From Candidatus Nitrosopelagicus sp. (GTDB taxonomy: Archaea > Thermoproteota > Nitrososphaeria > Nitrososphaerales > Nitrosopumilaceae): a DNA stretch of 53,433 bases. The notes beneath the pieces are model-generated. The model saw nothing but the letters and a program-made list of their open reading frames with translations, had not been told where the DNA came from and made no database searches. Positions 14,899 to 45,286 of the stretch are shown piece after piece. The position numbers and the translations under genes were made by a program. Positions within the stretch are counted from its first letter, which is position 1. Each line of letters starts with the position of its first letter. The stretch is taken from assembly GCA_028345965.1 (NCBI GenBank), contig JAOMEP010000007.1, forward strand, positions 1 to 53,433, in the 5' to 3' direction.

Positions 14899-14957
14899 TA
14901 GTGCTAATTACTGTGTTTTAAACATAAATGGAAAATAGGTTTCTAATCGTTAAATAT
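14899..14957. promoter_or_regulatory. urease divergent promoter region with TAGTGCTAA site
   Basis: For ureA (plus), TTAAATAT at 14950-14957 is centred about 25 bp before the ATG at 14978. For ureE (minus), an AT box around 14915-14922 (TTTAAAAC on the minus strand) is about 27 bp before its ATG. Both genes therefore look leaderless. TAGTGCTAA at 14899-14907 lies between the ureE TATA box and start codon, a position where a bound protein would block initiation. Confidence 0.6.
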
Positions 14958-14977
14958 GTGAAAAAGCAGATTTATTC

Positions 14978-15280
14978 ATGTTTTTAACACCTAGAGAGAT
15001 TGATAAATTACAAATTTTTACCGCAGCACAGGTTGCATTAAGAAGAAAAGAAAGAGGGTTGAAATTAAATCATCCAGAATCGATTGCCATAATTGCAGAC
15101 CACATTTTAGAAGGAGCAAGAGATGGGAAATCGGTTTCAGAATTAATGAGTTCTGGAAAAAATGTATTAAAAAAAGATGACGTACTGCCAGGAGTCATAG
15201 ATATTATTCATACAATTCAAGTGGAAGCCACATTTAATGACGGAACAAAACTCGTGACAATTCACGACCCCATAGTGTGA
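14978..15280 (+). CDS. ureA: urease gamma subunit UreA
   Basis: This 100-residue urease gamma chain has the typical [22 protein letters not shown]-terminal region, [21 protein letters not shown], and the C-terminal [18 protein letters not shown]. The length is standard for a separate gamma subunit. It is followed immediately by the beta-alpha fusion. An AT box 25 bp upstream of the ATG suggests a leaderless mRNA. Confidence 0.97.
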
Positions 15281-15285
15281 TAGAT

Positions 15286-17409
15286 ATGATTTCCAGATGG
15301 CGTTCCAAAACACCTCACATAGGAGAATACATGCCTGCAGAGGGCAACATAATTGCCAATGAATCCAAGAAAACATTCAAACTAAATGTTTCAAACACAG
15401 GAGATAGACCAATCCAAGTTGGTTCTCATACACATTTTGCAGAGGCAAATAAGGCATTAGAGTTTGATAGAGAAAAAGCACTAGGATATCATCTAAACAT
15501 ATCATCAGGTACATCAATTAGATTTGAACCAGGAGAATCAAAACATGTCGAGGTTGTAGAATTTGGAGGAACTAAAACAATTTTTGGATTTAGTGGATTA
15601 GTTAGCGGAGAATTAGAATCAAAACGAGAAGAGGCGGTAAAAAATATTCATGAAAAAGGTTTCAAAAATGTTTTAGAAAATATAGAAAATGAATCAACTT
15701 CATTAGAAATTCCACGTAGTAGATATGTAGAATTATTTGGGCCAACCAAAGGCGATAGGGTCAGACTAGCAGATACAGATTTGGTGATAGAGATTGAAAA
15801 AGATTTGATCAAGTATGGAGATGAGTTGGTATTTGGTGGCGGAAAAAGTGCAAGAGATGGTCTTGGTCAAGCAAGTGGAGTATTACGAGATGAATCTGCA
15901 GATTTAGTGATTACCAATGCAATGATAATTGATCCAAAATTAGGAATAATTAAAGCAGATATTGGAATTAAAGATGGAAAAATTTTAGGTGTTGGAAATG
16001 CAGGTAATCCAAACGTCATGGATGATGTAGACATTATCGTATCATCCAATACAGAAATAATTTCAGGAGAACATACAATTTGTACGCCAGGTACAATTGA
16101 TAGTCATATTCACTTTATCTCACCTCAACAAGCAATAGATGCAATTTGTAATGGAACAACCACAATGATTGGAGGAGGAACAGGACCTGCAGATGGTACA
16201 AATGCAACAACATGCACACCAGGAGAATTTAATATTCATAAAATGATAGAAGCGGTAGAAGAATTTCCAATGAATTTTGGATTTTTGTGTAAAGGAAATG
16301 ATTCTAAAGAAGAGTCGTTGATGGAGCAAATCAAGGCAGGAGCATGTGGATTAAAACTGCATGAGGACTGGGGAACAACTCCGGCTACAATTAATTCTGC
16401 ACTAAATGTGGCAGATAAAACAGACACTCAAGTTGCAATACATACCGATACACTAAACGAATGTGGCTATGTGGACGATACTATTGCTGCAATTAATGGA
16501 AGAGTAATCCACACATACCATACAGAGGGAGCAGGAGGAGGTCACGCCCCAGACATTATGAAAATAGCATCAGAACCAAATATTTTGCCGTCATCGACTA
16601 ATCCTACAAGACCTTTTACTACCAATACACTAGAAGAACATCTGGACATGATGATGGTGTGTCATCATTTGAACCCATCAGTTCCAGAAGATATCTCATT
16701 TGCAGAATCAAGGATTCGAGCCGAGACGATTGCCGCAGAAGACATTCTACATGATGTGGGAGCACTTAGCATGATGTCTTCAGATAGTCAAGCAATGGGA
16801 AGAGTAGGAGAGGTTACAACAAGAAATTGGCAAACAGCAGATAAAATGAGAAAAATGAAAGGACCACTAGCAGAAGATAATGAAGATAATGACAATTTTA
16901 GAATCAAAAGATATATTTCAAAAATTACCATCAACCCTGCAATTACACATGGAATATCAGACTACGTGGGTTCAATAGAACCAGGAAAAATTGCAGATAT
17001 TGTTGTATGGATGCCACAGTTTTTTGGAATCAAACCAAAAATGATCATAAAGGGAGGATTCATCGCATATGCGTTGATGGGCGACCCTAACGCATCAATT
17101 CCAACTACAGAGCCAGTTTACTACAGACCAATGTTTGGAGCATTGGGAAAAGCAAAGAAAACTACATCAGTCACGTTCACATCACAACTTGCACTTGATA
17201 ACGGCTTGGAAGAAAAAATGAAAATTGAGAAAAAATTACTTCCTGTGAAAAATTGTAGAAACATTGGAAAAAAAGATATGGTGCATAATGATGCTACACC
17301 GAAAATAGAGATAGACCCAGAAACATATGAGGTAAAAGTTGATGGTGAAATCGCTACAGTTGATCCTGCTACAGAAGTATCACTAGGACGTTTGTATAGT
17401 TTATTCTAG
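15286..17409 (+). CDS. ureC: urease beta-alpha fusion (UreB-UreC)
   Basis: This single 707-residue frame contains a urease beta domain (residues about 10-115; [24 protein letters not shown]) and the catalytic alpha domain (from [24 protein letters not shown]). Active-site features of alpha are all present: the HIHF nickel ligands, the carbamylated Lys in [10 protein letters not shown], His in AIHTDTLNE and [15 protein letters not shown], the flap segment [14 protein letters not shown], and Asp in [11 protein letters not shown]. Urea is hydrolysed to ammonia and carbamate. An alternative GTG start at 15277 would overlap ureA by 4 nt. Beta and alpha are usually separate genes, so the fusion is notable. 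There is no internal stop or frameshift. Confidence 0.95.
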
Positions 17410-17900
17410 ATATTACCTAGCAACATCTTTCTATTGTTAATCGTTCTTCGTACTAACATAAATCCGGCAGCTGTTGTAAATGCGCCAAATAGAATATTGA
17501 CAATACTCATCTCACCAGACGAAGTTCCAGTTAATGTAAAGACCATTCCAAGAATCATCATTAAGCCACCCAAAGCACCAATAATGAGCATCGGGATTGG
17601 AAGTTTTTGTTTCATATCTCCACGACTTTTGTCGGGCAATACACCACTTGCGGCTACTTTATGACAAACATCACAAAAGTGCTTTTGCTTTTTTCCTTGC
17701 CACGCAGTTTGTAAGAAGAAGAATTCGGTTTGACACAAATCACATGGTTTTTGTGGTATTGTTACTTTGCCATTTTTTTCCCAATCTTGACCAACTTTTA
17801 GCATACATGGTTTACAGAAACTTCCAGGTACTCTCCAAAATTTATTGAACTTGTACTTTTTCATACCAAGTACTATGCCACAACCTGTACAAGACGTCAT
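17406..17900 (-). CDS. zinc-ribbon membrane protein, unknown
   Basis: This 164-residue protein has four Cys pairs in its N-terminal 85 residues (CTGC, CKPC, CDLC, CDVC), consistent with two treble-clef or ribbon zinc sites. Two hydrophobic helices follow ([18 protein letters not shown] and [18 protein letters not shown]). The zinc part would be cytosolic. It overlaps the ureBC stop by 4 nt, tail to tail, and sits between urease and the urea transporters. Whether it has any role in urea metabolism is unknown. Confidence 0.7.
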
Positions 17901-17995
17901 GTTAAAGCATCAATCCCAGCATTAAAAAGAATTTTGGATGAAAATCCAAGTAGTAATTTGTTGAATACATAATTAAAATGGTAAAAGGGGGGAGG

Positions 17996-20041: not shown

Positions 20042-20061
20042 AGATGTTTTCAGAACTTTTT

Positions 20062-20087
20062 GTTATATATCAATTCCAAGAATTGAT
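20062..20087 (-). promoter_or_regulatory. TATA box and perfect palindrome upstream of urea symporter
   Basis: Reading on the minus strand, TATATAAC (20062-20069) is about 24 bp before the ATG at 20041. Directly upstream is ATCAATTC-TTG-GAATTGAT (20069-20087), an 8-bp perfect inverted repeat with a 3-bp spacer that overlaps the BRE position. This placement is expected for an operator of a dimeric archaeal regulator such as an Lrp- or XRE-type protein. Confidence 0.6.
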
Positions 20088-20136
20088 AATATGACACTTT
20101 AGATTTCAAGTTCTGCGGCAGTTATATTCTAACAGT

Positions 20137-20144
20137 CGACGTCG
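20137..20144. promoter_or_regulatory. CGACGTCG palindrome in transporter intergenic region
   Basis: An 8-bp palindrome, CGACGTCG, stands out in otherwise AT-rich intergenic DNA between the two symporter genes and sits about 70 bp upstream of the first symporter's TATA box. It may be a protein-binding site; no regulator can be named. Confidence 0.25.
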
Positions 20145-20164
20145 GCTTAAAATTTATTATTTAT

Positions 20165-20173
20165 AAAAAAATA
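20165..20173 (-). terminator. T-run terminator after second symporter
   Basis: About 30 nt past the stop at 20200, the minus strand reads CTATTTTTTTATAAATAAT, a T-rich stretch of the kind that terminates archaeal transcription without a hairpin. No other terminator-like element lies before the next gene. Confidence 0.4.
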
Positions 20174-20199
20174 GTTTTGTGTTTGTTATATGCAAACCA

Positions 20200-22503
20200 C
20201 TAGACTAACACAATTGGTTTTGAGCTTAGAGTAAGTAACTTAGAAGTGACATGTCCCAAATCAGAATCAGTATCACTTAGACCCTTACGACCCATTACAA
20301 TTGTATCAACATTTAGTGAAGTTGCAAGTTCGGATATCTTTTTTGCAGGATCACCTAGCTTGACAATTCGTTCATAGTTTTTCAATTTGCTTGGAAGTAA
20401 AATTCCCAAAAGCATTTTTCGTCCATCTTGTTCCATCTTTAATGTCATTTCTTCATCCATGGATTCATCATCATCAGTCCACTCTATTATATGAGCAAGG
20501 TAAACTTTGATGTTGGAAGATTCCTTCATTACATAATTTACATAATTCAATGACCGCATGGATGAGACAGAGCCATCTACAGCGACAAGAATTTTTTGGG
20601 CAATTTCATTTCCAGAAAGATCATTACCATATTTGTCAGATTTTTTAGGTTTTGAAGAAATGACTATATTTTTCAAAACATGGGCAATTCCAGATCTTGA
20701 TTGTATTATAGGTAAAGCCCAAACTAAAGACCCAGCAGTTGCAGCCCACAATATGGCAACCCAGATCCAAACATGATAAACAGTTTCAGTAAAAACATAA
20801 TTTGATAAAAATAATGGAATTGGCCATACTACGACAAGAATCAAAGTTAGTGTCAAACCATACCTCATACTAAATTTAGATGCATTTTTGAGAGATTCCT
20901 CATTTGTTTCTTTTTCCAGGCGTTTTCTAATTTGCTCATCAACTACAAAAATTTCATGTTTTAGTTTAGAGAAATTAAAGTTCTCAGGTCGGAATAAACT
21001 TCCGATTACAGTGATTATGAGGCTGGTCAAAATTGATGCAAGATTTCCTGCCAATAATGCAAACATGTTAGAAGTAGATGCAAGAGAAATTTCTCCAGAG
21101 GTTGCATATGCATATCCAAGCCAAACTGTAACTCCACATCCAAGACCGATTATCGAAGCGATTGTTGCAGCATATCTATTGGTGTCTTTCCATAAAATTG
21201 CAAGTGAAATTGGTGCAACTGCAGAACCTATCAAAACACCCATTGCAAGATAGACGTATTGCAAGCTTACTCCAAACTGGAATAACATAGATGCCAAAGC
21301 ACCCATTCCAAGTCCAAATCCAAGTATAGCATATCTCGAAATTCTCATTAATTGCCTTCCGGTGGATGAAGGTTTGATGTATGTTCGAAATACATCATAA
21401 GTTACAAGAGAGGATACAGAGATTAATTGTGCAGAACCTGCAGCAGTTACAGCGGTGAATAAAACAGTAAGCATTAGAATTGCGCCGATGTCGCCTAAAA
21501 GATGTGCAGCTGCCAATGGAGCAACCAATCCGGAGCTAATTTCAAGAGGAGTTAATTCAAGATTTACCGCAACTGCAGCTAATCCTAAAGTTGTTGCAAG
21601 TGCAAAAGGAATGGCAAACCACGCCAATCCTCCTACTAAAAATCCAGGAACTACAGAACGAGGACGAGATGCAATTGCACGTTGCCAGTAGGACTGATCA
21701 ACAAAAACAGTACCAAAGTTTCCCACAATATTGATAACTCCAAAAATTAATGCCCCAACTGATGCAAGTGTTAAAAATGAACCAGCTGCATTTCCTTCAA
21801 CAGGATACATTGCAGCAGCGTTAGATAATTTTTCAAACATTCCAGAGATTCCACCAATATCAGGATTGACGAAATATATTGCAGATGTGAAAATCAAAAC
21901 GACCACAAAGATGAATGCTGTATTGAAATATTCTGCAAGAAATGTTGCTTTTAGACCACCAAACAAAGTATACGCAATTACACCTACAGGAATCAAAAAT
22001 GCAGCAATGTAGACATTAATTCCAGTTAGTGCATTTACAACAGCCGCACCGCCCAAAACCAACATTGCAGTTACTATGATATTTGTAAGAAATGCAAAAC
22101 TAAGAAATACCTTATGTGAGGATTTACCAAATCTTGAATTTATCATTTCAGGAAAAGTGTGAGACATAGGAGATTTTCGTTTTAATTCAATTGCCAATAT
22201 GGCAAATAATACAACCTGGATTGATGCACCAGCTGCATACCAAAAAGGACCACTTATCCCGTATTGATATGCCACAGTAGATGATTGAAGAAGAGTTGCA
22301 GCCCAAGTCCATGCAGATACAACAGAGGTAACGATTAATCCTGTTTTTACAGTTCTACCTGCAGTCGAAAACCATTCAAAAGTTTTCTTGGTTCCAAGCC
22401 ATTTTGTTTCAGCTTTAACCAAAATCAATACAACAGATGCCAGTAAAATTCCAACACCAATTAAAATTAGATAACCAATACTTTCATCAAGAATATAGGA
22501 CAA
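20200..22503 (-). CDS. sodium:solute symporter fused to universal stress domain
   Basis: This 767-residue protein pairs an SSS transporter paralogous to the previous gene (shared SAWTWAATLLQSSTVAYQYG, GLKATFLAEYFNT, NIVGNFGTVFVDQSYWQRAIA) with a C-terminal UspA-type domain from about residue 640 (KILVAVDGS at its start, VDTIVMGRKG and a GHVTSKLL-type ATP-binding loop at its end). The Usp domain would lie in the cytoplasm and could gate the transporter by ATP or energy state. The start is TTG at 22503, 25 bp from a minus-strand TTTAAATAA box, so a leaderless TTG start is likely. TAGTGCTAA lies just upstream of that box. Confidence 0.87.
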   Translation of the reverse strand: MSYILDESIGYLILIGVGILLASVVLILVKAETKWLGTKKTFEWFSTAGRTVKTGLIVTSVVSAWTWAATLLQSSTVAYQYGISGPFWYAAGASIQVVLFAILAIELKRKSPMSHTFPEMINSRFGKSSHKVFLSFAFLTNIIVTAMLVLGGAAVVNALTGINVYIAAFLIPVGVIAYTLFGGLKATFLAEYFNTAFIFVVVLIFTSAIYFVNPDIGGISGMFEKLSNAAAMYPVEGNAAGSFLTLASVGALIFGVINIVGNFGTVFVDQSYWQRAIASRPRSVVPGFLVGGLAWFAIPFALATTLGLAAVAVNLELTPLEISSGLVAPLAAAHLLGDIGAILMLTVLFTAVTAAGSAQLISVSSLVTYDVFRTYIKPSSTGRQLMRISRYAILGFGLGMGALASMLFQFGVSLQYVYLAMGVLIGSAVAPISLAILWKDTNRYAATIASIIGLGCGVTVWLGYAYATSGEISLASTSNMFALLAGNLASILTSLIITVIGSLFRPENFNFSKLKHEIFVVDEQIRKRLEKETNEESLKNASKFSMRYGLTLTLILVVVWPIPLFLSNYVFTETVYHVWIWVAILWAATAGSLVWALPIIQSRSGIAHVLKNIVISSKPKKSDKYGNDLSGNEIAQKILVAVDGSVSSMRSLNYVNYVMKESSNIKVYLAHIIEWTDDDESMDEEMTLKMEQDGRKMLLGILLPSKLKNYERIVKLGDPAKKISELATSLNVDTIVMGRKGLSDTDSDLGHVTSKLLTLSSKPIVLV

Positions 22504-22537
22504 TCACTAAACATAAAATAATAATTATTTAAACTCA

Positions 22538-22546
22538 TAGTGCTAA
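22538..22546. promoter_or_regulatory. TAGTGCTAA site upstream of symporter-Usp gene
   Basis: This exact copy of the recurrent nonamer lies a few bases upstream of the minus-strand AT box of the 22503 gene and about 35 bp upstream of the AT box of the Lrp-type gene at 22600. It could therefore serve either direction. Confidence 0.45.
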
Positions 22547-22599
22547 TTTAGGCGTGAGTTATTGAAACCCTTACATATTCTGACGAGCATACATGATTA

Positions 22600-23133
22600 A
22601 TGACAGACGAAATTGATGAATTAATAATTTCAGCCTTATCAAAAGACTCCAGACAAGATTCCGCAGAAATTTGGGATTTTCTAAGAGGTTTTGGGCATGA
22701 CGTAGCCCCCGAGGAAATTGAATCAAGAATTTCAAAACTATCTCAAGAAGGAGTGATCACAGGATATTCGATTACAATAGACCCAAAAAAACTACCAAAG
22801 CGAATAATCAGAACTACCCTAATCACATTCAAAGTGTCTCAATCACTTCGTAAAAGAACAGAAAGTTTGAAAAAATATCTAAAAGATGCTCCATTTGTAA
22901 TTTTTTCAGGAAGTACAAAAGGAGGATTAGATTGGATTACAATTAGATCATTCCCGTCGGTAGAAATTGCAGATGAAGAAACCGATATTTTCAGAAATTT
23001 GTTTGGAGATATTATTCAGACATACCAGGTTTATGATTTTGCACCAACAAAAGAGGTATCATTACACGCCCTATCATATACAGAAAAGGAACACAAAGAA
23101 TTTCTTAAAGAATGGATGCCACCATTTCTATAA
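22600..23133 (+). CDS. Lrp/AsnC-type transcriptional regulator
   Basis: This 177-residue protein has an N-terminal winged helix (DELIISALSKDSRQDSAEIW, then IESRISKLSQEGVITGYSITIDPKKL, the typical Lrp junction) and a C-terminal RAM-like ligand domain. TATA-like TTACATATTC lies about 24 bp upstream of the ATG, so the mRNA is probably leaderless. It diverges from the symporter-Usp gene, a common arrangement for a local regulator, and it converges with the ParB-like gene with adjoining stops. It is a candidate regulator of urea uptake by position only. Confidence 0.82.
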   Translation: MTDEIDELIISALSKDSRQDSAEIWDFLRGFGHDVAPEEIESRISKLSQEGVITGYSITIDPKKLPKRIIRTTLITFKVSQSLRKRTESLKKYLKDAPFVIFSGSTKGGLDWITIRSFPSVEIADEETDIFRNLFGDIIQTYQVYDFAPTKEVSLHALSYTEKEHKEFLKEWMPPFL

Positions 23134-23997
23134 TCATAATTTTAGAGTTTTCTTTAAAGTGACCCTTTCAAAATGAATTGTTTCATCCAACAATTCATGT
23201 AATTTGTAACGTAAATCCATCATGTATGTAACTACTTCACGTCTAACCTTTGGGTCAGAAATAGTTTGAGCTTCATTTGCTACAGAATCAATTCGTGATA
23301 GAGCCATTTTTAGACCAAGTTTTGTTTTTTTGGTAATTCTATGGGATTGTTCAGCTTTGGTTGTCCGAGGATCGTCATCTTTTTTTACTTTTGATTTCTT
23401 TATTGAACGAATCTGTTTTACTGTCAAGTGATCATCATAAATTCTCTGAGCCATTTCAGCTTGTTCTTCAGATGGAACACCTAGTAATTCGAGACTTTGG
23501 CTGACCGAAAGGGCATTTTGGATTAACTGCTTTTTTGCCTCAGATGGTAATTTCAAAAGTTGAATTCTATGCGATACATATTCTTCACTTTTTTCAATTT
23601 TACTTGCTAGTTCAGATACACCGCCCCATCCAAAATCATCAACATATTTTTTGAATGCTTCTGCCTCTTCAAGTGCATTAAGTGATTTACGCTGAATATT
23701 CTCGGTTAATTGTATCTCATAGGTTTGTTTATCACTTAATTCTCTGATTTTTGACTGAATGTGGCGCCATCTCAAAGAACGGCATGCCTCAAATCTTCGA
23801 TAGCCAGCAACAATTTCAAATCCTAATGCGACAGGTCTAACCAATATTGGCTGTAACAAACCATGTTCTGTGATACTTTTTACAAGTGAGCGGAATTCAG
23901 GGTCATTTTTGTCAATTTTATGCCTAACCTCAAATGGAGAATGCTTAATCATACGCATCTCAATTGGCTCAATAATACTAGAATCAAAATGTTCCAT
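23134..23997 (-). CDS. ParB-like DNA-binding protein
   Basis: This 287-residue protein has an N-terminal ParB/Srx-type domain (HGLLQPILVRPVALGFEIVAGYRRFEACRSL, in line with the ParB box GERR/GYRR) and a central helix-turn-helix (GWGGVSELASKIEKSEEYVSHRIQLLKLP). The C-terminal third is helical and highly charged. Bacterial and plasmid ParB proteins load at parS sites and use a CTP-binding clamp; here GYRRFEA retains the key arginines. No ParA gene is nearby. A TAGTGCTAA copy lies 8 bp before its ATG. Either chromosome organisation or gene regulation is possible. Confidence 0.85.
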   Translation of the reverse strand: MEHFDSSIIEPIEMRMIKHSPFEVRHKIDKNDPEFRSLVKSITEHGLLQPILVRPVALGFEIVAGYRRFEACRSLRWRHIQSKIRELSDKQTYEIQLTENIQRKSLNALEEAEAFKKYVDDFGWGGVSELASKIEKSEEYVSHRIQLLKLPSEAKKQLIQNALSVSQSLELLGVPSEEQAEMAQRIYDDHLTVKQIRSIKKSKVKKDDDPRTTKAEQSHRITKKTKLGLKMALSRIDSVANEAQTISDPKVRREVVTYMMDLRYKLHELLDETIHFERVTLKKTLKL

Positions 23998-24004: not shown

Positions 24005-24013
24005 TAGTGCTAA
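24005..24013. promoter_or_regulatory. TAGTGCTAA site at ParB-like gene start
   Basis: This exact copy of the nonamer lies 7 bp upstream of the ParB-like gene's ATG, almost the same spacing as at ureE (6 bp). It would overlap the transcription start if the transcript is leaderless. Confidence 0.45.
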
Positions 24014-37811: not shown

Positions 37812-37832
37812 GTTTCACTTGATAACAGTGAA

Positions 37833-37840: not shown

Positions 37841-37862
37841 ACAATGCAAACCAAGATTTAGT

Positions 37863-38030
37863 ATGGTGTTACCGTTAGTTGACGAGGATAAACCAAAGTG
37901 CTTTTTGTGCCATGATACATTTGATGACTATGATAATCTACGAGAACATCAGGAAACAAAGCATAAGGATTATTTTGAATTTCATGATAAGAAGAGAGGT
38001 CCCGCACCAGGCGATGTTAATATTTTTTAG
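37863..38030 (+). CDS. 55-residue C2H2 zinc-finger protein
   Basis: The ATG at 37863 opens 55 codons ending in TAG at 38030. The product has one classical C2H2-like finger: CFLC, then DTFDDYDNLREH and a second His in ETKH, giving C-x2-C-x12-H-x4-H. A short basic tail follows. It overlaps the 3' end of the convergent TPR gene by 14 nt. Single-finger proteins occur throughout archaea, some as DNA-binding regulators. The TATA box at 37833 supports a leaderless start. Confidence 0.7.
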   Translation: MVLPLVDEDKPKCFLCHDTFDDYDNLREHQETKHKDYFEFHDKKRGPAPGDVNIF

Positions 38031-38505: not shown

Positions 38506-38534
38506 TGATTAGAATAATATTTCCTAGATAATAT

Positions 38535-39248
38535 TTATTTTCGTTTAATTTTTCGATATATTGAAAAACCAATTAGGGCGAATATACCAGATATAATTCC
38601 AACAAATATTACAAGAGGTGTAAAGTCTTCAGAGAAATATCTTGATTCAAGCCATGCGTTTGGCAATACGGTTACAAAATCATTTCCAGAGAAATCCTCC
38701 ACATATCCTATAGCAAGCGCCAGTTTTCCAGAGGAACCTGTTTTATCAAATACTGCCATGTAGTATGTACCAGGTGCTTCTATCTCAAGATCAATTTCTT
38801 GACGTTCCCAATATGTGATTTGACCAAAGGGTTCATAGAATTCTGTTGAAGGTATAGAACCATTATAATCAAAAACATATGCATCGTAACCTTCTGGAAT
38901 AGGATAATTGAAATTTTTGTCAGTATCTAGTACCTTTAGCTCATCCACCAGGTCAAGAAATGTTGAAGGTCCTATCAATACAAGCGAAGGAGTGAATTTT
39001 TCTAAATTATCTAGCTTTGGAATAACAATACTACTGAAAAGTCTGTCATCTTTTTCTGCATCAAATTTGTAAAACAATGCGTTGCCTTCCAATTCTTCGT
39101 ACATTGCCCAAGAAATAACAGGATCTGGAATTTCCAATGCAGATTCATAATCTGTATTCGTTCCATCTGTAGGAATTAATTTATGACCAAATGCAGATGC
39201 AGGAAGCATCAACAAACAAAACAATCCAATAAAGATAATTTTCTGCAT
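38535..39248 (-). CDS. exported protein anchored by C-terminal helix, unknown
   Basis: This 237-residue protein has an N-terminal signal peptide (IIFIGLFCLLMLPASAFG), an extracytoplasmic domain of about 185 residues rich in beta-like segments (FSSIVIPKLDNL, GTYYMAVFDKTGSSGKLALAIGYVEDF), a C-terminal helix (PLVIFVGIISGIFALIGFSIY) and a basic tail (RKIKRK). The architecture suggests a surface protein with a cytoplasmic stop-transfer tail, not a PEFG-sorted one. The HKLIPTDGTN region may bind a ligand or metal. No family is recognised. Confidence 0.65.
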   Translation of the reverse strand: MQKIIFIGLFCLLMLPASAFGHKLIPTDGTNTDYESALEIPDPVISWAMYEELEGNALFYKFDAEKDDRLFSSIVIPKLDNLEKFTPSLVLIGPSTFLDLVDELKVLDTDKNFNYPIPEGYDAYVFDYNGSIPSTEFYEPFGQITYWERQEIDLEIEAPGTYYMAVFDKTGSSGKLALAIGYVEDFSGNDFVTVLPNAWLESRYFSEDFTPLVIFVGIISGIFALIGFSIYRKIKRK

Positions 39249-39323
39249 GATTACCTATCAATGTTTGAAGATTTAACGCATGAATGCTAATTTCACATAG
39301 TAGACAAATCTAGGCATGAATAC

Positions 39324-39332
39324 TAGTGCTAA
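39324..39332. promoter_or_regulatory. TAGTGCTAA site upstream of 39383 gene
   Basis: This exact copy of the nonamer lies about 20 bp upstream of the TATA box of the 39383 gene and 76 bp upstream of the divergent gene at 39248. Confidence 0.45.
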
Positions 39333-39333
39333 C

Positions 39334-39360
39334 ACGTAATTTTTTTACGTTTGTTAAATA
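39334..39360 (+). promoter_or_regulatory. inverted repeat and TATA box of 39383 gene
   Basis: GTTAAATA (39353-39360) is centred about 26 bp before the ATG at 39383. Directly upstream is ACGTAA-N5-TTACGT (39334-39350), a perfect 6-bp inverted repeat in the BRE-proximal position, a possible operator. Confidence 0.45.
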
Positions 39361-39382
39361 CACGGTTTCGGGAGTAATCTCC

Positions 39383-39715
39383 ATGGAGCTAAAACTGCCA
39401 TTCAAATTAAAAATAAAATATCTAAATGCAACCGGAGATAGTTTTCAAGGTAAAGCTGTATTTCACGAAAAAGAGCATCCTATCAAAATTCATGCAGAAA
39501 ATAATGAAAAGATTATCAAAGTTCCATTCTCAGTAATGGGAGTTACTGACGATGAAATACTAGCGAGAGTGTCAGGACCATCAGGAGTATACGTAGAAGA
39601 CCGCATAAAATTCAAAGGACAATCAAAATGGGTAGAAATAGACTCAGACATAATATTTTTTGAAATTGCAAACAGTCAACACAAGTTTGATACTATGGAA
39701 ATATTTGTTAAATAG
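39383..39715 (+). CDS. hypothetical protein, beta-rich
   Basis: This soluble protein of about 110 residues has an alternating polar/hydrophobic pattern (MELKLPFKLKIKYL; KGKAVFHEKEHPIKI-type strand; IIKVPFSVMGVTDDEILARVSG) consistent with a beta sandwich. The frame is open from 39326, but the TATA box at 39353 makes the ATG at 39383 the start. It ends 1 nt from the convergent oxygenase gene. No family is recognised. Confidence 0.55.
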   Translation: MELKLPFKLKIKYLNATGDSFQGKAVFHEKEHPIKIHAENNEKIIKVPFSVMGVTDDEILARVSGPSGVYVEDRIKFKGQSKWVEIDSDIIFFEIANSQHKFDTMEIFVK

Positions 39716-40462
39716 TTAGGTCCAAGAATAAAAACAATTTTCGGTTGATTCTCCAAAAAAGAAAGTCAACGTTATGCGAGATTTTAATCCAGATATAGAT
39801 TCAATTTGATGATAAAATTTTGGATTTAAAATAACCATATTTCCAACGATAGGTTTTATTTTTGTTTGATAAACACCTCTAATCAAATCTGAAGAATAGC
39901 CAAATTCTGGTTCTCTCATCATTTCATCTTTTTTAGACCACATTTTATGAAAAATTGTTAGTTCTCCACCCACATCAGGAGATTGAAGATAAAGAATTGC
40001 AGATAATTGATTTTTGAATCGACTTACATTGTATTCACTCATCTCAAAATTAGAATTATCACGATGCAGGTGTACAGAATCTCCACTTTCATGTATTCGG
40101 ATTACAGCATCAGAGTAAACATTGCCATTTTCAGTTGTAGTGTATATTTTTTTTCCAAATAATTTTGATATTTTTTGTTGCATGAAGGTTAAAGGTGAAA
40201 TATTTTCGGAGAATAAATTTTTTAAAATTTCATTTGATTTTTTTGATTTTGAAAAGTATCTTTGCTTTTCATATATATGCGAACTTAGAGATGTACCAAA
40301 TTTTGTTGAAGAGTCATTTCTTTGAGACATATTCAAAATTTTACGAGATATAGAAATACAATCAGATTTTGATAAAACCTTTGGAATAATTAAAGCAGGA
40401 ATTTTTCCAGTAATCAAATCATCGTACGATGATGTTTCATCTAAAATTTGTGGAGCCCACAT
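39716..40462 (-). CDS. 2-oxoglutarate/Fe(II)-dependent oxygenase (prolyl-4-hydroxylase type)
   Basis: This 248-residue protein has a double-stranded beta-helix core. The iron ligands are seen as HLHRDNSN (HxD) and the distal His in PKFYHQIESISG, with the 2-oxoglutarate-binding Arg in SRITLTFFFG. LSAILYLQSPDVGGELTIFH is characteristic of P4H-like enzymes. The substrate is probably a protein side chain, not determined. The ATG at 40462 overlaps the upstream stop as TGATG, so it is coupled to the small 40462-40749 gene; an in-frame start at 40498 would overlap further. Confidence 0.82.
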   Translation of the reverse strand: MWAPQILDETSSYDDLITGKIPALIIPKVLSKSDCISISRKILNMSQRNDSSTKFGTSLSSHIYEKQRYFSKSKKSNEILKNLFSENISPLTFMQQKISKLFGKKIYTTTENGNVYSDAVIRIHESGDSVHLHRDNSNFEMSEYNVSRFKNQLSAILYLQSPDVGGELTIFHKMWSKKDEMMREPEFGYSSDLIRGVYQTKIKPIVGNMVILNPKFYHQIESISGLKSRITLTFFFGESTENCFYSWT

Positions 40463-40749
40463 CAGTATCCGCCAGCGCCCGAATGCGAGACTGTACATAC
40501 GAGTTTATTCTCAGAATTCCTGCCTGAAATTTCACATTTTACAAATTTATTATTGAGACTTTCTTCAATTTGAGTGATATTTCTAGAGTTTTCATCTACA
40601 GGAATACTTGGAATATCAATTTCAGTGAATTGAATTTGTTCCACATCTTGATAGCTATCCTGATTAGTATCCTTTTGATGTGAAACATTCATCTCAAACG
40701 AATTTGTTGTAATAATTTTTGTTACAGTTCCCCAAATTATATCAGACAT
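40462..40749 (-). CDS. small protein coupled to oxygenase, C-terminal SGAGGY tail
   Basis: This 95-residue protein begins MSDIIWGTVTKIITTNSF, resembling the start of staphylococcal-nuclease-like OB folds, followed by an acidic middle and KFVKCEISGR-NSENKLVCTV. It ends in a flexible SHSGAGGY tail. Catalytic nuclease residues are not evident. Its stop overlaps the ATG of the 2-oxoglutarate oxygenase. It may be a substrate or accessory of that enzyme; this is inference. Confidence 0.6.
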   Translation of the reverse strand: MSDIIWGTVTKIITTNSFEMNVSHQKDTNQDSYQDVEQIQFTEIDIPSIPVDENSRNITQIEESLNNKFVKCEISGRNSENKLVCTVSHSGAGGY

Positions 40750-40775
40750 TTTTTATCATAAGAAAAAGAAAGATG

Positions 40776-41744
40776 TTATGGTACAACAATAAGATTCAAC
40801 GGAAGATCTAATTTACCAAATGGTTCTGCAATGCGCAAATAGTAATCTTTGCCTGAATCATATTCAAAGTTCTCATAACTACCATAACCTATTGCAGGTC
40901 CCCATAAGATATTAACAAATTTGGCTTGTCCTGGTTTTAGTACGACATTACCAGATGTAAAGTCAGAACCAGAGTTTACCCATTTTTTTCCTCCATCCCA
41001 TACGGTGTAGTTGCATATTGATGGGCTAGTGCACATTAGTGTCTCATTTGAGGAACCAGTGTTTTGAACCATCATTTGTAGGTTTAAGAGAGGTTGGCCT
41101 GTTGCAGTGTATGCGATGTTATTGTATTGTTTAACACCCTTTCTAGTTTCTTCTTGCCAATCTGCTACATAATAATATGCAACATTACCAAGTTGGAATT
41201 TTTCACCGCTGCTCTGGTATGTTTTTAATTTGTATTCATCTTTAATTACTTTCTCACATTCGCGGATTTCTCTTTTGTTTTCACCGCCTTGACATTTGGC
41301 TAACATTTCATCAAGATCTGCATTGCCAGATGATTGTGATGTAGTAGTTTCTTTAGGAGTGGATTGATATTGTGATTTTGATGCACCGTCATCACTTACA
41401 GCGCTTGCGCTAACTTGCATGATACCCATCTTAATCAAATATTGAAGTGCGTTGACAAACTCATTTTCAGTTAGTGTACCATCTGCCCACCATCCTGCGT
41501 TATTCTTTACCCAAGCTGGAATAGTATCAGAGGCGCCTGAACTTCTGGTAGTTGATGGAACATTGATTATTCCATTTTCAATCATATATTGAACACCAGA
41601 AACAAATGCAGCGTCGTCAATTTGGCCTTCTGCCCACCATCCTGCATTATTTTTTACCCAATCAGGGACATTAGCAGCATCAACACTGCCAACCATAGAG
41701 GTCAGTAGTAAAACGCCTGCAATTCCCGCGAGTATTGCTTTCAT
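40776..41744 (-). CDS. secreted protein with two WVKNNAGWW repeats
   Basis: The start at 41744 (MKAILAGIAGVLLL) gives a clean signal peptide ending SVDAA; the open frame to 41777 adds an unlikely extension. Two repeats of about 40-60 residues follow: PDWVKNNAGWWAEGQIDD and PAWVKNNAGWWADGTLTE, each continuing into a VQYMIENGI-like segment. A Ser/Thr linker and a C-terminal domain with a beta-rich pattern (VLKPGQAKFVNILWGP) come next. This repeat is widespread in exported thaumarchaeal proteins, but its role is unknown. An AAGTGCTAA site and a TTATATAT box lie upstream. Confidence 0.82.
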   Translation of the reverse strand: MKAILAGIAGVLLLTSMVGSVDAANVPDWVKNNAGWWAEGQIDDAAFVSGVQYMIENGIINVPSTTRSSGASDTIPAWVKNNAGWWADGTLTENEFVNALQYLIKMGIMQVSASAVSDDGASKSQYQSTPKETTTSQSSGNADLDEMLAKCQGGENKREIRECEKVIKDEYKLKTYQSSGEKFQLGNVAYYYVADWQEETRKGVKQYNNIAYTATGQPLLNLQMMVQNTGSSNETLMCTSPSICNYTVWDGGKKWVNSGSDFTSGNVVLKPGQAKFVNILWGPAIGYGSYENFEYDSGKDYYLRIAEPFGKLDLPLNLIVVP

Positions 41745-41775
41745 TAAACATTGGACGCAATTACAATATATAAGC

Positions 41776-41803
41776 AAGTGCTAATTGGTCGACTAGTGCC
41801 TAA
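41776..41803. promoter_or_regulatory. AAGTGCTAA and TAGTGCCTAA sites in tandem
   Basis: Two variant copies of the recurrent nonamer lie 18 bp apart. The first is one mismatch from consensus (41776-41784) and the second has one insertion (41794-41803). They sit immediately upstream of the minus-strand TTATATAT box of the 41744 gene. Confidence 0.4.
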
Positions 41804-41848
41804 CATCACCATCTTTAGACTTTAATTCAATAAATTATCAAAAAAGAT

Positions 41849-42286
41849 ATGCCAAAATTTTCATTTACAAAATTAGTTGACATTGATAGAGACGTATTCT
41901 TTGCAATCAGTACAGATTATGAAAAGTTTACAAAAATTCTTCCAGAATATTTTCTAGAACTAAAAATTATTGAAAAAAAGGACAATACTACGATAATTTT
42001 TGAGACATTAAGATTCCTAGGAAAAACGGTTAACGTTACTACAGAGCATGTTGTAGAAAAACCAGATAGACATATTGTCAAAATGCTGGATGGACAAGCA
42101 AAAGGTACAGTCTTTGATGAAACATATGAAAAAGTTGGAGAACAGACAAAGGTTACAATCGAAGTTAATTTTGTACTATCGGGTGGACTCAAAATTTTGG
42201 GAATGTTTGCTAAAAGTAAGATTGAAAGTAGTATGAAAACGGTCTTAGACGAATTTGCAAATTATGCAAAAGATCACTCAAAGTGA
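41849..42286 (+). CDS. SRPBCC-superfamily (START/polyketide cyclase-like) protein
   Basis: This 145-residue protein has the helix-grip pattern: an N-terminal strand, VFFAISTDYEKFTKILPEYF, a central series of beta strands (TTIIFETLRFLGKTVNVTTEH, KVTIEVNFVL) and a long C-terminal helix (IESSMKTVLDEFANYAKDH). Members bind lipids, sterols or quinones; ubiquinone-binding COQ10-like proteins have this fold. Here it could bind menaquinone or an isoprenoid, but this is not shown. It overlaps the convergent FAD enzyme gene by 9 nt. Confidence 0.72.
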   Translation: MPKFSFTKLVDIDRDVFFAISTDYEKFTKILPEYFLELKIIEKKDNTTIIFETLRFLGKTVNVTTEHVVEKPDRHIVKMLDGQAKGTVFDETYEKVGEQTKVTIEVNFVLSGGLKILGMFAKSKIESSMKTVLDEFANYAKDHSK

Positions 42287-43654
42287 AGAAAGATGTTTTT
42301 CTATTAACGGATGTGCTAAAACAGCACTATGTGCTGCAGAGTCGGTTCCAATACCATAACTAATAGTAGAATCACCTACAAAAAATAACCCATCTACGTG
42401 AGATACAGAATGTGGCATTTTATTTTTCCATACTAAGCCTGGTTCTTTTACCACAGCCTCTACAAGTTTCCAAGCCATAGGCCTATCCCATAATAAGGAA
42501 TCATCAAAGTCAGGATAAATTTCAGATAACTCCTGTTTCATTTTTGAAACAATTTCTTTAATTCGTGTTGGATTCTCGGTTTCTTCAGGTTTTACAGGAG
42601 TGCCAACTATGATGAGATGTTCTCCTTTAGGAGATACGGATGGAGTAATGTTCGAAATAAAGAAAATTCCTTTTGAGACATAGTTTTCACCTACTGGAAA
42701 AACAACCTGACGTTCATCCAGTCTTTTTGATAATGCAAAATGAACTTCAACTACAGAAGTTGTTTTATTAAGTCGATTTGTTTTTTTGATAAAATCATCA
42801 TCAAAGACTCCAGAGTCAAATAATTGATTAATCGCATGATATGCAGGATATGAGATAATTACACAGTCACTTTGGACTATTTCCCCAGTAGATAGTTCAA
42901 CACCAGTTACCTTTCTATCTTTAACAATCACCTTTTTGATAGAAGACCCCAGATTAACTTGAGAATTTTTTTCTTTGACATAATTTGCCATTACCTCACT
43001 AATTCGATCATATCCGCCCATGTCGGGATATGCAAATTCACTTGTTCCCCCTTTGAATGGATTTGCACGAATTATGGTTCTTGCAAATTCACCAAGAGAG
43101 ATATGATCAGGGGTGTCTGCAAATGCAAGCATACAGACAGCATCAAAAAATTGTTTAGAATGAAAATCAAGTTTGGAGGTAACTTTTGTTAAAGGTACAG
43201 CGTCTAATTTTTCTGCTTTTTCCATACTAGTGAATGCCATAGGAAGAAGTATTTTCAGTAATGATATTCGGCTCTTGAATGGAATTAAAGACATTTTCAG
43301 AATATCTGCAATTCCTTTTGGGTAAGTATGGAATCCATTGTCATAAAATGCAATTTTATCGACAATTGCAAGTTTAAGTCTAGATTCTATCTTGACATCT
43401 TTTAGAATTTCATATATTGCCGATTTTTTGTAAAACGGCATTATATGAAAGCCATTATCTAAAATGTGGTTTTTGAATTCCATAGAGGCTGTTCGCCCAC
43501 CCACACGCTCAGATTTTTCATAAACAGAAACAGGGTATCCGTCATTCACCAAAAGAGTTGCAATTGATAAACCGCCGACTCCAGCGCCTATTATGGCGAC
43601 TGGTTTGGTCGACGGATTTTTTGAAATCTCTTTACTGTGATTTTCAGAATTCAT
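42278..43654 (-). CDS. FAD-dependent amine oxidase/phytoene desaturase-like oxidoreductase
   Basis: This 458-residue flavoprotein has the N-terminal FAD motif VAIIGAGVGGLSIATLL, the ERVGGRTASME RxGGR motif, a C-terminal GLFFVGDSTISYGIGTDSAAHSA FAD-binding segment, and PLTKV-type core residues. Related enzymes are carotenoid desaturases, protoporphyrinogen oxidase and geranylgeranyl reductases. Thaumarchaeal lipids and menaquinones have saturated or partly saturated side chains, but the actual substrate is undetermined. The ATG at 43654 is 1 nt after the upstream zinc-protein stop, so both share a transcript. Confidence 0.82.
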   Translation of the reverse strand: MNSENHSKEISKNPSTKPVAIIGAGVGGLSIATLLVNDGYPVSVYEKSERVGGRTASMEFKNHILDNGFHIMPFYKKSAIYEILKDVKIESRLKLAIVDKIAFYDNGFHTYPKGIADILKMSLIPFKSRISLLKILLPMAFTSMEKAEKLDAVPLTKVTSKLDFHSKQFFDAVCMLAFADTPDHISLGEFARTIIRANPFKGGTSEFAYPDMGGYDRISEVMANYVKEKNSQVNLGSSIKKVIVKDRKVTGVELSTGEIVQSDCVIISYPAYHAINQLFDSGVFDDDFIKKTNRLNKTTSVVEVHFALSKRLDERQVVFPVGENYVSKGIFFISNITPSVSPKGEHLIIVGTPVKPEETENPTRIKEIVSKMKQELSEIYPDFDDSLLWDRPMAWKLVEAVVKEPGLVWKNKMPHSVSHVDGLFFVGDSTISYGIGTDSAAHSAVLAHPLIEKHLSSL

Positions 43655-43655
43655 T

Positions 43656-43874
43656 TTATGCAGCAACAGTTGTTGTTGATTCGACTGGTATGACTCTTTT
43701 CTTATTTCGAGATTTGGTTCTCAAAATCATTTTGCAACAAGGACAGCGAATTTGTTCAGTGTCAAGCCATACTTCGCACCAACTGCAACGTTTTAGTCCG
43801 TATTGATATTTCATTGAATTTGGAACTTTCATTACTTTGTGCTGTGTGCATATTCCTTTACATGATGCTCCCAT
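43656..43874 (-). CDS. 72-residue zinc-ribbon protein
   Basis: From the ATG at 43874, the product has an N-terminal CKGIC segment and a rubredoxin-like ribbon with CSWC and CPCC about 13 residues apart, then a basic tail ending ESTTTVAA. It lies 1 nt upstream of the FAD enzyme. TTAAATAT on the minus strand is centred about 30 bp upstream of the ATG; a TTG at 43880 is also in frame. No family is recognised; it could deliver electrons if it binds iron, which is unproven. Confidence 0.65.
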   Translation of the reverse strand: MGASCKGICTQHKVMKVPNSMKYQYGLKRCSWCEVWLDTEQIRCPCCKMILRTKSRNKKRVIPVESTTTVAA

Positions 43875-43909
43875 GAACAAATTACTGAATTATGATATTT
43901 AATAGTTAT

Positions 43910-43933
43910 GCACTAGCGTGAGTCTAGTGCTAA
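43910..43933. promoter_or_regulatory. GCACTAG-N7-CTAGTGC palindrome containing TAGTGCTAA
   Basis: GCACTAG (43910-43916) and CTAGTGC (43924-43930) form a perfect 7-bp inverted repeat with a 7-bp spacer. The right arm is part of an exact TAGTGCTAA (43925-43933). The palindrome abuts the minus-strand AT box of the 43874 gene and overlaps the 3' end of the methyltransferase gene, including its stop codon. Confidence 0.55.
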
Positions 43934-44758
43934 TTTTTTACATTTTAGCATTAAATAACCGATCAGTTCATTTTCAGATGCAGATTGCATTTTTTTCATA
44001 GATTCAAAAAGTATTTTTTCTACATATTTAGAATAACGTGAAAGAATCTTTTTTTGTAATTCAGAACGATTATTGATATAATATTCAGCCAGAGGAGAGT
44101 AAACATTTTTTCCAATATCATTTGATTCTATAATTTCAAATCCATTTTTAGAAAGTTCATTAACAATATTTTTTTGGGAATAATGTTCTGATGACCAAGT
44201 GAATTTCAATATTCCAAGATTGCTAAAACTAGAATTATCTATAGCAGTAGGGATTGCAAGTGCAAGAATACCATCATCTTTTAAAACACGATTCGATTCA
44301 GAAAAAAAATCTCCAATAGGTTTGAAGTGTTGGGCAGATTCTAATGCAATTACACAATCTAATGAAGAATTGGAAAATGGAAGCATCCTTGCTGTAGAAT
44401 TTATTTTTGATATATGACCAGGATTAACCGAGGCTAATTGTGAGAAATTTACGTTTACAGAAGAGATTTGTAATGAAGGATATTGAGAACTCCAAATTTT
44501 TGCAGGTCCTAAAATTCCACTTCCAATATCAGCAATCACCTCTGCGGCAGATATTTCAGCCATTTCACCAATCATTTGACATAATCGTTTTTGCGCATCA
44601 GTAGGATGAGGAGTAGAATTATCCCAATATCCGAAATTCAGCATATCTCCACCAGTAGAGACCTCCATAATTGGAGAAAGGGAATCATATAATTTTACAA
44701 CGTCACTTTCATTTCTTCGAAATGTCCATAGAAGTAAATCTATAGGATTAATCAGCAT
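43913..44758 (-). CDS. class I SAM-dependent methyltransferase
   Basis: This 281-residue protein has motif I as VIADIGSGILG, post-I VNVNFSQL, SSLDCVIALESAQHF (motif IV-like) and NRVLKDDGILALAIP (motif V region). The N-terminal YDSLSPIMEVSTGGDMLNFGYWD is the lid typical of small-molecule methyltransferases, including tocopherol, sarcosine and quinone methyltransferases. It lies just upstream of the zinc protein and FAD enzyme on the same strand, so the three may act in one lipid or quinone modification pathway; this is inference from context. Confidence 0.83.
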   Translation of the reverse strand: MLINPIDLLLWTFRRNESDVVKLYDSLSPIMEVSTGGDMLNFGYWDNSTPHPTDAQKRLCQMIGEMAEISAAEVIADIGSGILGPAKIWSSQYPSLQISSVNVNFSQLASVNPGHISKINSTARMLPFSNSSLDCVIALESAQHFKPIGDFFSESNRVLKDDGILALAIPTAIDNSSFSNLGILKFTWSSEHYSQKNIVNELSKNGFEIIESNDIGKNVYSPLAEYYINNRSELQKKILSRYSKYVEKILFESMKKMQSASENELIGYLMLKCKKLALDSR

Positions 44759-44789
44759 GTTAAAAATAAAAAAACCGTGGATATATGAT

Positions 44790-44921
44790 TTAAGGCAAAT
44801 CCACTAATTCTTCAACACAGTGTTTGTGAACCCAAACCTCATCTGCGTTTTTGGCGATTTCCTTACCTTTTCGGATATCATCGCCGCAGCTTTTACATTT
44901 TCCGTCAAATCTTGCTTTCAT
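44790..44921 (-). CDS. 43-residue zinc-binding protein
   Basis: The ATG at 44921 opens 43 codons ending in TAA at 44790. The product reads MKARFDGKCKSCGDDIRKGKE with CxxC, then VWVHKHC giving HxxC, a C-x2-C...H-x2-C ribbon. This FDGKCKSCG...HxxC pattern is found in single-stranded DNA or PARP-like zinc domains. It lies between the methyltransferase gene and a divergent small gene, on the minus strand. The function is unknown. Confidence 0.7.
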   Translation of the reverse strand: MKARFDGKCKSCGDDIRKGKEIAKNADEVWVHKHCVEELVDLP

Positions 44922-44960
44922 GTAAGTCAATAGCGAGGTGTGCGTAAATGTGATACTTTG

Positions 44961-44995
44961 TTGATTAGATTGACCTGAACTCAGTCTAAAATCAA
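44961..44995. promoter_or_regulatory. imperfect stem-loop in 165-bp intergenic region
   Basis: TTGATTAGATTGA (44961-44973) can pair with TCAGTCTAAAATCAA (44981-44995) over 13 bp with one G-T pair and a 2-nt bulge, leaving a 7-nt loop. It may be an operator or part of a small RNA. A separate TTGGTCA/TGACCAA inverted repeat follows at 44999-45030. Confidence 0.35.
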
Positions 44996-45087
44996 TTCTT
45001 GGTCATAGAGGGATCAATTTTTTTGACCAACTTTGTCAATCAGAAAAGGCAATTTGGATATTATAGATCAAAATACAATGTACCAAT

Positions 45088-45240
45088 ATGCAAACTGAAG
45101 ATTTTGAATCCAAACCGGGACAGGATTTTTGGGACAATGCAAACAAGTATTCTTGGTCAAATGGAGAATACGAGTTTTTAAGAGAAATGTCATTTATCAT
45201 GGTAAATCTCCATCATCAGAACAAATCTGAAGAGCAATAG
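45088..45240 (+). CDS. 50-residue small protein, unknown
   Basis: The ATG at 45088 opens 50 codons ending in TAG at 45240. The product is acidic with an aromatic centre (GQDFWDNANKYSWSNGEYEF). ATATTATAG about 25-30 bp upstream supports a leaderless transcript. Its stop codon is the first three bases of an exact TAGTGCTAA motif. It lies in the same direction as, and 65 bp upstream of, TFB. No family is recognised. Confidence 0.55.
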   Translation: MQTEDFESKPGQDFWDNANKYSWSNGEYEFLREMSFIMVNLHHQNKSEEQ

Positions 45241-45286
45241 TGCTAAAGAAAAAAAATTAACACTAGAAGACATTACTAATTAATTC
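45238..45286 (+). promoter_or_regulatory. TFB promoter with TAGTGCTAA-N10-TTAACACTA dyad
   Basis: TAGTGCTAA (45238-45246) and TTAACACTA (45257-45265) form an inverted repeat with one mismatch and a 10-bp spacer, upstream of a TAATTAATT box (45278-45286) centred 24 bp before the TFB GTG at 45306. The placement suggests an operator or activator site controlling TFB. Confidence 0.55.

Follow-up and report, generated by a model that had tools for sequence, protein, structure and literature searches.

The closest described counterparts of the regulatory system considered here are the bacterial cobalamin (B12) photoreceptor repressors CarH and LitR. According to excerpts of two accounts (PMC8156234, PMC9304148), CarH is recognized by a Wx9EH sequence, which is absent from methionine synthase, together with a B12-binding motif, and it acts in the dark as a repressor on direct repeats that overlap the promoter. 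Excerpted descriptions of the class II LitR regions of Pseudomonas list photolyase, a short-chain dehydrogenase/reductase (SDR), a flavin adenine dinucleotide (FAD) oxidoreductase and UfaM (PMC9758184), and part of a further report describes a LitR-controlled operon encoding photolyase, LitR and RudS, a TudS-DUF1722 fusion (PMC11417400). The present analysis concerns a nonamer, TAGTGCTAA, in a stretch of 53,433 nucleotides from Candidatus Nitrosopelagicus sp. (hereafter the window), which forms contig C40 of an assembly of 1.0 Mb with 72% completeness. On the minus strand, which is used by most of the genes concerned, the nonamer reads TTAGCACTA. It probably marks a regulon of ammonia-oxidizing archaea that is based on B12 and controlled by light and that has gained urea and ParB-like genes in this lineage.

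Light inhibits ammonia-oxidizing archaea, helping set where ocean nitrification happens. No light-sensing gene circuit for these organisms was found in the titles and abstract openings searched. Within the same limits, open-licence literature on Nitrosopumilus, Thaumarchaeota or archaea in connection with cobalamin photoreceptors, CarH/LitR, photolyase or promoter motifs gave no description of a circuit such as the one proposed here, and three of the papers (PMC6593220, PMC7785015, PMC9239080) deal in their excerpted text with photolyases or other motifs only.

The nonamer as a conserved half-site

Judged from sequence comparison, the nonamer is a conserved regulatory site that is marked by its position and conservation and not by its number in the genome. 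The sequence-only reading that drew attention to it had listed six exact copies, each just upstream of a gene, and its coordinates proved right (Table 1). All six are on the plus strand, and the estimate of fewer than one copy by chance agrees with 100 dinucleotide shuffles (mean 0.40, maximum 2). Allowing one mismatch gives an unremarkable count, 17 in the window against 11.4 expected, and 6 of the 100 shuffles give at least as many. Genome-wide over-representation, which that reading had proposed to look for, did not materialize, and by its own criterion this counts against the idea: 13 copies occur against 13 for a reversed-letter control and same-genus relatives are similar. The corresponding counts for the degenerate form TTRGCACTA are 19 and 14 in this genome, 20 and 21 in G025 (a single-contig genome of the same genus) and 37 and 20 in G033, and the motif did not come up in an intergenic k-mer ranking of the sampled part of its own genome. 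Distribution between coding and noncoding DNA gave no grounds for refutation. A sample of 386,516 bases of the genome contains seven copies of TTAGCACTA in 47,112 noncoding bases versus five in 339,404 coding bases (with the copy at 43925 counted as internal to an open reading frame, or ORF), which makes the word about ten times denser in noncoding DNA, and the reversed control occurs once in noncoding and five times in coding DNA. Thirteen of the 20 TTRGCACTA sites in G025 are likewise noncoding, and these include the gaps before the genes for TFB (archaeal TFIIB), the homologue of 38535-39248 and a B12-binding protein.

Conservation upstream of orthologues was found at every site, though it is weak at ureE. 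Among the 13 ParB-like loci compared, TTAGCACTA precedes the gene in all 11 of the same genus and is lacking in two homologues from other genera. Upstream of ureE, for which 17 of 26 loci were compared, it is present in the six closest, so that the link to ureE suggested by the sequence-only reading holds as a lineage-specific feature and not as a general one. The other aligned promoters gave the following picture: TTRGCACTA in 6 of 6 for the symporter (four with TTAGCACTA, two with TTGGCACTA), in 12 of 13 for 38535-39248 (G008 is without it) and in 14 of 14 for the operon encoding a zinc-ribbon protein and FAD oxidoreductase; TAGTGCYAA in 11 of 11 for TFB; and TTAGCACTT in 9 of 11 for the surface protein gene 40776-41777, eight of these also having TTAGGCACTA. 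One of the remaining two has TTAGCACTA and TTAGCACCA, and G008 has neither.

A footprint test asked which 9-mers of the 130 bp upstream recur in every divergent relative compared. Of 122 such 9-mers, GTTAGCACT and TTAGCACTA alone pass for the ParB-like gene (four relatives) and for 38535-39248 (six relatives). No 9-mer is kept in all relatives at ureE or at the zinc-ribbon operon, where TTAGCACTA is kept in six of seven. Other stretches survive at the symporter, 40776 (among them AATTAGCAC) and TFB, where the exact nonamer drops out through variation to TTGGCACTA, TTAGCACTT or TAGTGCCAA.

Two TTRGCAYTA-like half-sites make up the operator, and the nonamer is one of them; some promoters have a single half-site. 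Two half-sites in direct or inverted orientation, 18-20 bp or two helical turns apart, precede 40776, the 43656 operon and TFB and are found on contigs C11 and C34 of the same assembly. The pairs are often just upstream of the TATA box, and half-sites generally are placed against the B recognition element (BRE) and TATA or over the gene start. Several of these arrangements had been noticed in part before: the variants AAGTGCTAA at 41776 and TAGTGCCTAA at 41794, the dyad GCACTAG-N7-CTAGTGC and the pair TAGTGCTAA/TTAACACTA at 45238-45265 are all present in the sequence. The clearest example, TTRGCACTA-N10-TTRGCAYTA-TATA, precedes the gene for a 283-residue B12-binding protein elsewhere in the assembly.

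Across 81 genomes the tandem pattern TAGTGYYWA-N8-12-TAGTGYYWA has 22 matches versus 4 for its reversed control. It is present in 15 of 31 genomes of the same genus, where 10 tandems lie before the B12 ORF, three before the zinc-ribbon operon and one before the 40776 homologue. A tandem also lies upstream of the B12 orthologue in family f2 (G053 and G076, at about 30 bp) and family f8 (G078, at 76 bp); in the f2 genomes an ORF can be read as extending over it. At C34:25743 (locus L004; L417 in G025) a half-site pair is followed by GTTAAATATC with no clear gene next on that strand, and it possibly belongs to a small gene or RNA, or serves the divergent gene 744-1445 of L004.

The possibility that the nonamer is a chance or codon-driven word is close to negligible. 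Counts near those of the reversed control in this genome, in G025 and in same-genus relatives are what such an account would predict, and in G037, from another family, TAGTGCTAA occurs 38 times versus once for the control, with 28 copies inside ORFs. Promoter position, conservation and tandem architecture contradict it, and chance is rejected because of the first two despite the ordinary copy number. The excess in G037 (L238-L275) was also considered as a large regulon and rejected, since 23 of the 28 ORF-internal copies share one reading direction, which makes codon usage the probable cause.

The inverted site at 43907-43933 suggested the CIRCE element of HrcA, with the consensus TTAGCACTC-N9-GAGTGCTAA. 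This site has the same N9 geometry and shares TTAGCACT, whereas the other sites are direct repeats, outward pairs or single. The consensus has no match in the window at up to three mismatches, and this candidate was rejected.

A B12-binding protein as the candidate regulator

The sequence-only reading had named neither a regulator nor a signal. A candidate for the regulator is encoded at C11:3065-3913, in a 284-codon ORF for a protein of 283 residues with two B12-binding domains. Scanning GTDB genomes by protein similarity, and not by motif, gave 112 candidates, of which the best 80 loci (44-100% identity) were used; these are not independent, because near-duplicates are included. Where records with the gene are named, at 61-100% identity, they carry the label Candidatus Nitrosopelagicus or unclassified marine thaumarchaea. 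In 74 of the best 80 loci TTRGCACTA lies within 110 bp upstream of the B12 gene (in 70 on the gene strand), versus none for the reversed control, and it is mostly 56-59 bp before the start codon. A second half-site with the consensus TTAGCAYTA follows 19 bp on and runs into the TATA box, and the strict tandem is present in 38 of the 80 loci (reversed control, 0).

The strict tandem also occurs together with the protein. Of the 29 genomes in which the B12 protein was matched at a best E of 1e-30 or lower, 18 have the tandem, versus 4 of the 52 without the protein (Fisher p 2.6e-7, uncorrected for kinship); among genomes at least 90% complete the figures are 7 of 12 with the gene versus 2 of 32 without it. 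The B12 protein is taken as the likely binder of the operator because of the near-constant operator before its own gene and this co-occurrence.

It is improbable that the proximal half-site is instead an extended BRE for the TFB paralogue of the regulon, which would make the element the mark of a core-promoter class and not an operator. Such an account would draw on the proximal half-site abutting TATA in B12-gene promoters and on the TFB gene being within the regulon. It is at odds with the half-site at the start codon in the ureE and ParB-like promoters, with the direct or inverted orientation and variable distance to TATA, and with the B12 gene itself, where TTRGCACTA matches the distal half in 70 of 80 loci and both halves fit in 38.

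A rather unlikely alternative is that another DNA-binding protein reads the operator and that the B12 protein is its partner or a mere member of the regulon. One such protein could be the HTH_45 neighbour, which matches a winged-helix family and adjoins the B12 gene in Nitrosopelagicus, and another could be the Lrp/AsnC-like protein encoded at 22600-23133, which has a half-site in its promoter gap. The gene cluster of the HTH_45 type is represented in 8 of the 80 B12 loci, an undercount because ORFs below 90 residues were left out, and the Lrp-like gene was found only in fetched regions around the ParB-like gene, whereas the operator is far more widespread. The ParB-like protein was also considered as the regulator and rejected: G019 (95% complete), G012 and G008 (about 65% complete) retain the operator, and the ParB-like gene was not found in them. 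On C11 (L001/L232), genes for the winged-helix HTH_45 protein and for a MEDS-domain protein precede that of the B12 protein, and both look sensory.

The B12 protein carries the signatures of a light sensor of the CarH type. Wx9EH, the motif that caps the adenosyl group, is present in all 64 aligned proteins, and the B12-binding motif D/ExHx2G/Px41SxT/Vx22-27GG in 62 of them. In hmmsearch comparisons the E-value is 4.5e-17 to CarH and 1.9e-21 to a photocobilin. An AlphaFold2 model (mean predicted local distance difference test score 89.8) combines a three-stranded sheet at residues 2-39 with a helical bundle and a part that resembles a Rossmann fold. Its VIA Z scores are 22.0-23.0 to photocobilins (23.0 corresponding to 1.8 A over 203 residues), 21 to the B12 domain of a Chloracidobacterium MerR-family protein and 18.5-18.9 to CarH (18.5 corresponding to 2.4 A over 197 residues), and all 50 matches listed by Foldseek are photocobilins, CarH/LitR or the Chloracidobacterium domain. 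No MerR match was found with Pfam; the N-terminus is instead modelled as the three strands, which form a conserved sheet with many lysine and arginine residues. A likeness of the N-terminal domain to integrase-arm or transposase N-termini found no support in the fold-match lists.

Genes of the regulon

Within the 80 B12 loci, 353 of 367 TTRGCACTA sites are noncoding, although noncoding DNA makes up 171,884 of 889,941 bases; the reversed control has 10 sites, two noncoding and eight coding. TTRGCAYTA occurs between -150 and +30 of 354 of 969 ORFs in these loci, versus 3 of 969 for the reversed pattern. The operator is concentrated in particular clusters of genes: those for the B12 protein (77/80), homologues of the surface protein 40776 (52/62), the DUF1722 protein (40/47), FAD oxidoreductase (36/44), TFB (24/46), the protein 38535-39248 (17/22) and proteins of 120 residues (30/36), 144 residues (10/13) and 117 residues (9/10). 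It precedes none of the ORFs in clusters 11-14, 16, 17, 19, 21-25 and 29.

Genes for repair of ultraviolet damage are among those with an operator in relatives. Among the 10 photolyase loci with an aligned start, two have an operator directly at the photolyase gene, six have this gene behind a DUF1722 gene with TTRGCACTA within 130 bp upstream, and two showed neither arrangement. A pyrimidine-dimer glycosylase (PF03013, E 6e-25), found in 11 of the 81 family genomes, carries the operator at four of its eight full-length loci, with four fragmentary loci (L442-L445) left out of the count. An SDR gene (PF00106) in G025 has a half-site 38 bp upstream. A half-site also precedes the gene for a 226-residue protein without a Pfam match (L433 1567, in G033), which by eye looks like a cluster present at 4 of the 80 B12 loci.

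The core of the regulon comprises the B12-binding putative photoreceptor, encoded on the other contig, FAD oxidoreductase, the surface protein, TFB and 38535-39248, with the operator preceding homologues in many ammonia-oxidizing archaea. The operator counts of the clusters at the B12 loci place the sites at 39324, 41776, 43925 and 45238 in this old conserved gene set. The sites at ureE, at the symporter and at the ParB-like gene have been added to it and occur in close relatives, those at the latter two genes being constant among the same-genus relatives that keep the gene. The shared regulon with a common operator that the sequence-only reading had proposed is strongly supported, but its core genes are other than those that were stressed.

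Proposed mechanism

In the proposed mechanism, the B12-loaded protein would multimerize in the dark and bind the half-sites through its N-terminal basic three-stranded beta-sheet. The bound protein would block TFB and the TATA-binding protein at its own promoter, at those of the FAD oxidoreductase, surface-protein and TFB genes and, in relatives, at promoters of DNA-photorepair genes. Light would break the Co-C bond, so that the protein releases DNA and the genes are induced, and the induced TFB would carry the response further. In some bacterial light regulons an extracytoplasmic function (ECF) sigma factor extends the response. In Nitrosopelagicus, the urease accessory operon, the symporter gene beside the urea genes and the ParB-like gene would have acquired half-sites. 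With the proximal half-site directly against TATA, and with the sites of ureE and the ParB-like gene at the start codon, the simplest action is to block the core promoter, as CarH does, and activation is possible too. Light is taken as the signal on account of the sensor domain and the cargo.

The probability of the overall explanation, a two-half-site operator and a regulon centred on a CarH/photocobilin-like B12 protein with repression released by light, is estimated at about 0.6. The odds are even for the fuller claim that a B12 light-sensing regulator of new architecture, joining a CarH-like sensor to a beta-sheet DNA-binding domain, controls photorepair, FAD oxidoreductase, surface proteins, a dedicated TFB and, in Nitrosopelagicus, urea use.

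Several observations weigh against the overall explanation. Genome-wide counts in Nitrosopelagicus are not raised over the reversed control, TTRGCACTA is missing upstream of 6 of the 80 B12 genes, and four genomes (G029, G048, G054, G065) have a tandem and no B12 orthologue, three of these tandems being within ORFs. The B12 fold is not specific to light, since methionine synthase (VIA Z 18.1) ties with CarH (18.5), and corrinoid methyltransferase proteins rank close behind CarH in the profile search. For the N-terminal sheet, Pfam gave no credible match and Foldseek no match at E below 0.001; its best VIA Z is 4.4, to phytocystatin, with the nucleic-acid binders PC4, Pur-alpha and A100 at 3.4. 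The operator is present at only 24 of 46 TFB homologues, 16 of 63 epimerase genes, 5 of 42 SRPBCC genes and, directly, 2 of 10 photolyase genes, and its presence at ureE in just 6 of 17 loci is of the same kind. Pyrimidine-dimer glycosylase was not found in this assembly, 72% complete as it is, or in six other genomes of the genus.

A further alternative is that the regulon is real and its signal is not light but oxidative stress or cobalamin status. This is considered unlikely. Enzymes also use the B12 fold, light and singlet-oxygen regulons overlap in bacteria, and ammonia-oxidizing archaea make cobalamin. Wx9EH, the photocobilins as best structural matches and a cargo that includes photolyase and pyrimidine-dimer glycosylase argue for light.

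If the fuller claim is true, no cobalamin photoreceptor circuit would have preceded this one in Archaea, and it would provide a molecular handle on the light sensitivity of ammonia oxidizers. The operator, the candidate B12 photoreceptor and the list of UV-repair genes make the question testable in existing cultures. A link between light and urea genes in surface-water Nitrosopelagicus would tie photobiology to the choice of nitrogen source.

Sites and genes in the window

The sites and genes concerned are collected in Table 1. The similar gaps between half-site and ATG that had been noted at ureE and the ParB-like gene were borne out, as was the position of the 43925 copy, which lies within the last codons of the methyltransferase ORF and also upstream of 43656-43880. 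A second conserved stretch, AGAATATGTAAGGGTTTCA on the minus strand at 22563-22581, lies in the gap between the symporter and Lrp-like genes and is kept in 4 of 4 divergent relatives. The ParB/Noc-like protein is an archaeal one whose gene adjoins the urea genes. A WelO5-like 2-oxoglutarate-Fe oxygenase encoded at 39716-40498 (PF22814, E 1.5e-28), one of the operator-bearing genes, diverges faster than its neighbours (36-98% identity).

Table 1. Half-sites, operators and associated genes in the window
Feature	Position	Strand	Remarks
Half-site TTAGCACTA	14899..14907	-	6 bp before ureE ATG, in ureE/ureA divergent gap; kept in 6/17 ureE loci
Half-site	22538..22546	-	Between SSF symporter and Lrp/AsnC-like gene, just upstream of TTTAAATAA
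Half-site	24005..24013	-	7 bp before ATG of ParB-like gene
Half-site	39324..39332	-	Between divergent 38535-39248 (-) and ORF listed as 39326-39715 (+)
Tandem operator TTAGGCACTA-N9-TTAGCACTT, then TATA (minus-strand reading)	41776..41803	-	Promoter of surface protein 40776-41777
Inverted operator TTAGCACTA-N9-TAGTGCATA, then TATTAAATAT	43907..43933	-	Promoter of zinc-ribbon/FAD oxidoreductase operon
Inverted operator TAGTGCTAA-N10-TTAACACTA	45238..45265	+	Upstream of TFB
ureE (UreE_N)	14386..14892	-	Pfam PF02814
Sodium:solute symporter fused to Usp domain	20200..22503	-	
Lrp/AsnC-like regulator, weak family matches	22600..23133	+	NCBIfam E 1.3e-7, below cut-off
ParB-like protein (ParB_N, HTH_ParB)	23134..23997	-	TIGR04285 E 7.9e-45, below its cut-off
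Conserved protein without Pfam match	38535..39248	-	Cluster operator-bearing in 17/22 near B12 gene in other genomes
Putative surface protein	40776..41777	-	Cluster operator-bearing in 52/62
SRPBCC/polyketide-cyclase-like protein	41849..42286	+	Divergent from 40776; homologues operator-bearing in 5/42
FAD-dependent amine-oxidase/desaturase-like protein	42278..43666	-	Homologues operator-bearing in 36/44
74-residue cysteine-rich protein, first in FAD oxidoreductase operon	43656..43880	-	tblastn relatives in fetched regions
S-adenosylmethionine-dependent methyltransferase	43913..44758	-	3' end overlaps 43925 half-site
TFB (archaeal TFIIB)	45306..46322	+	Homologues operator-bearing in 24/46

Comparison with known systems

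Within ammonia-oxidizing archaea, the copper response of Nitrososphaera viennensis likewise involves motifs upstream of co-regulated genes. The motifs given in the excerpted text (PMC7785015), TTCSGSMTTTGWACYANT and RATTTAAABATAGATTTAAATAATAAS, are unlike TTRGCACTA. Photocobilins (8j2w, 8j2x, 8j2y) are the best structural matches of the B12 protein, with VIA Z of 22-23 over 203-204 residues, but those entries are bacterial and the remaining part of the protein differs. The class II LitR regulon is matched in its photolyase, FAD oxidoreductase, DUF1722 protein and, weakly, SDR/epimerase (16/63 for the epimerase); these are found in relatives and not all of them in the genome of the window.

With the bacterial MerR-family repressors CarH and LitR the predicted archaeal system shares the Wx9EH and B12 motifs, a four-helix bundle with a Rossmann fold, a repeat operator at the core promoter and a regulator gene with an operator of its own, as well as the company of photolyase, FAD oxidoreductase, SDR/epimerase and DUF1722 genes. 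It differs in that the archaeal protein has an N-terminal three-stranded sheet and no MerR DNA-binding domain. The operators also differ, being tandem 11-bp repeats of nAnnTnnACAn in the bacterial systems and 9-bp TTRGCAYTA half-sites 18-20 bp apart here, and the archaeal regulon includes a TFB.

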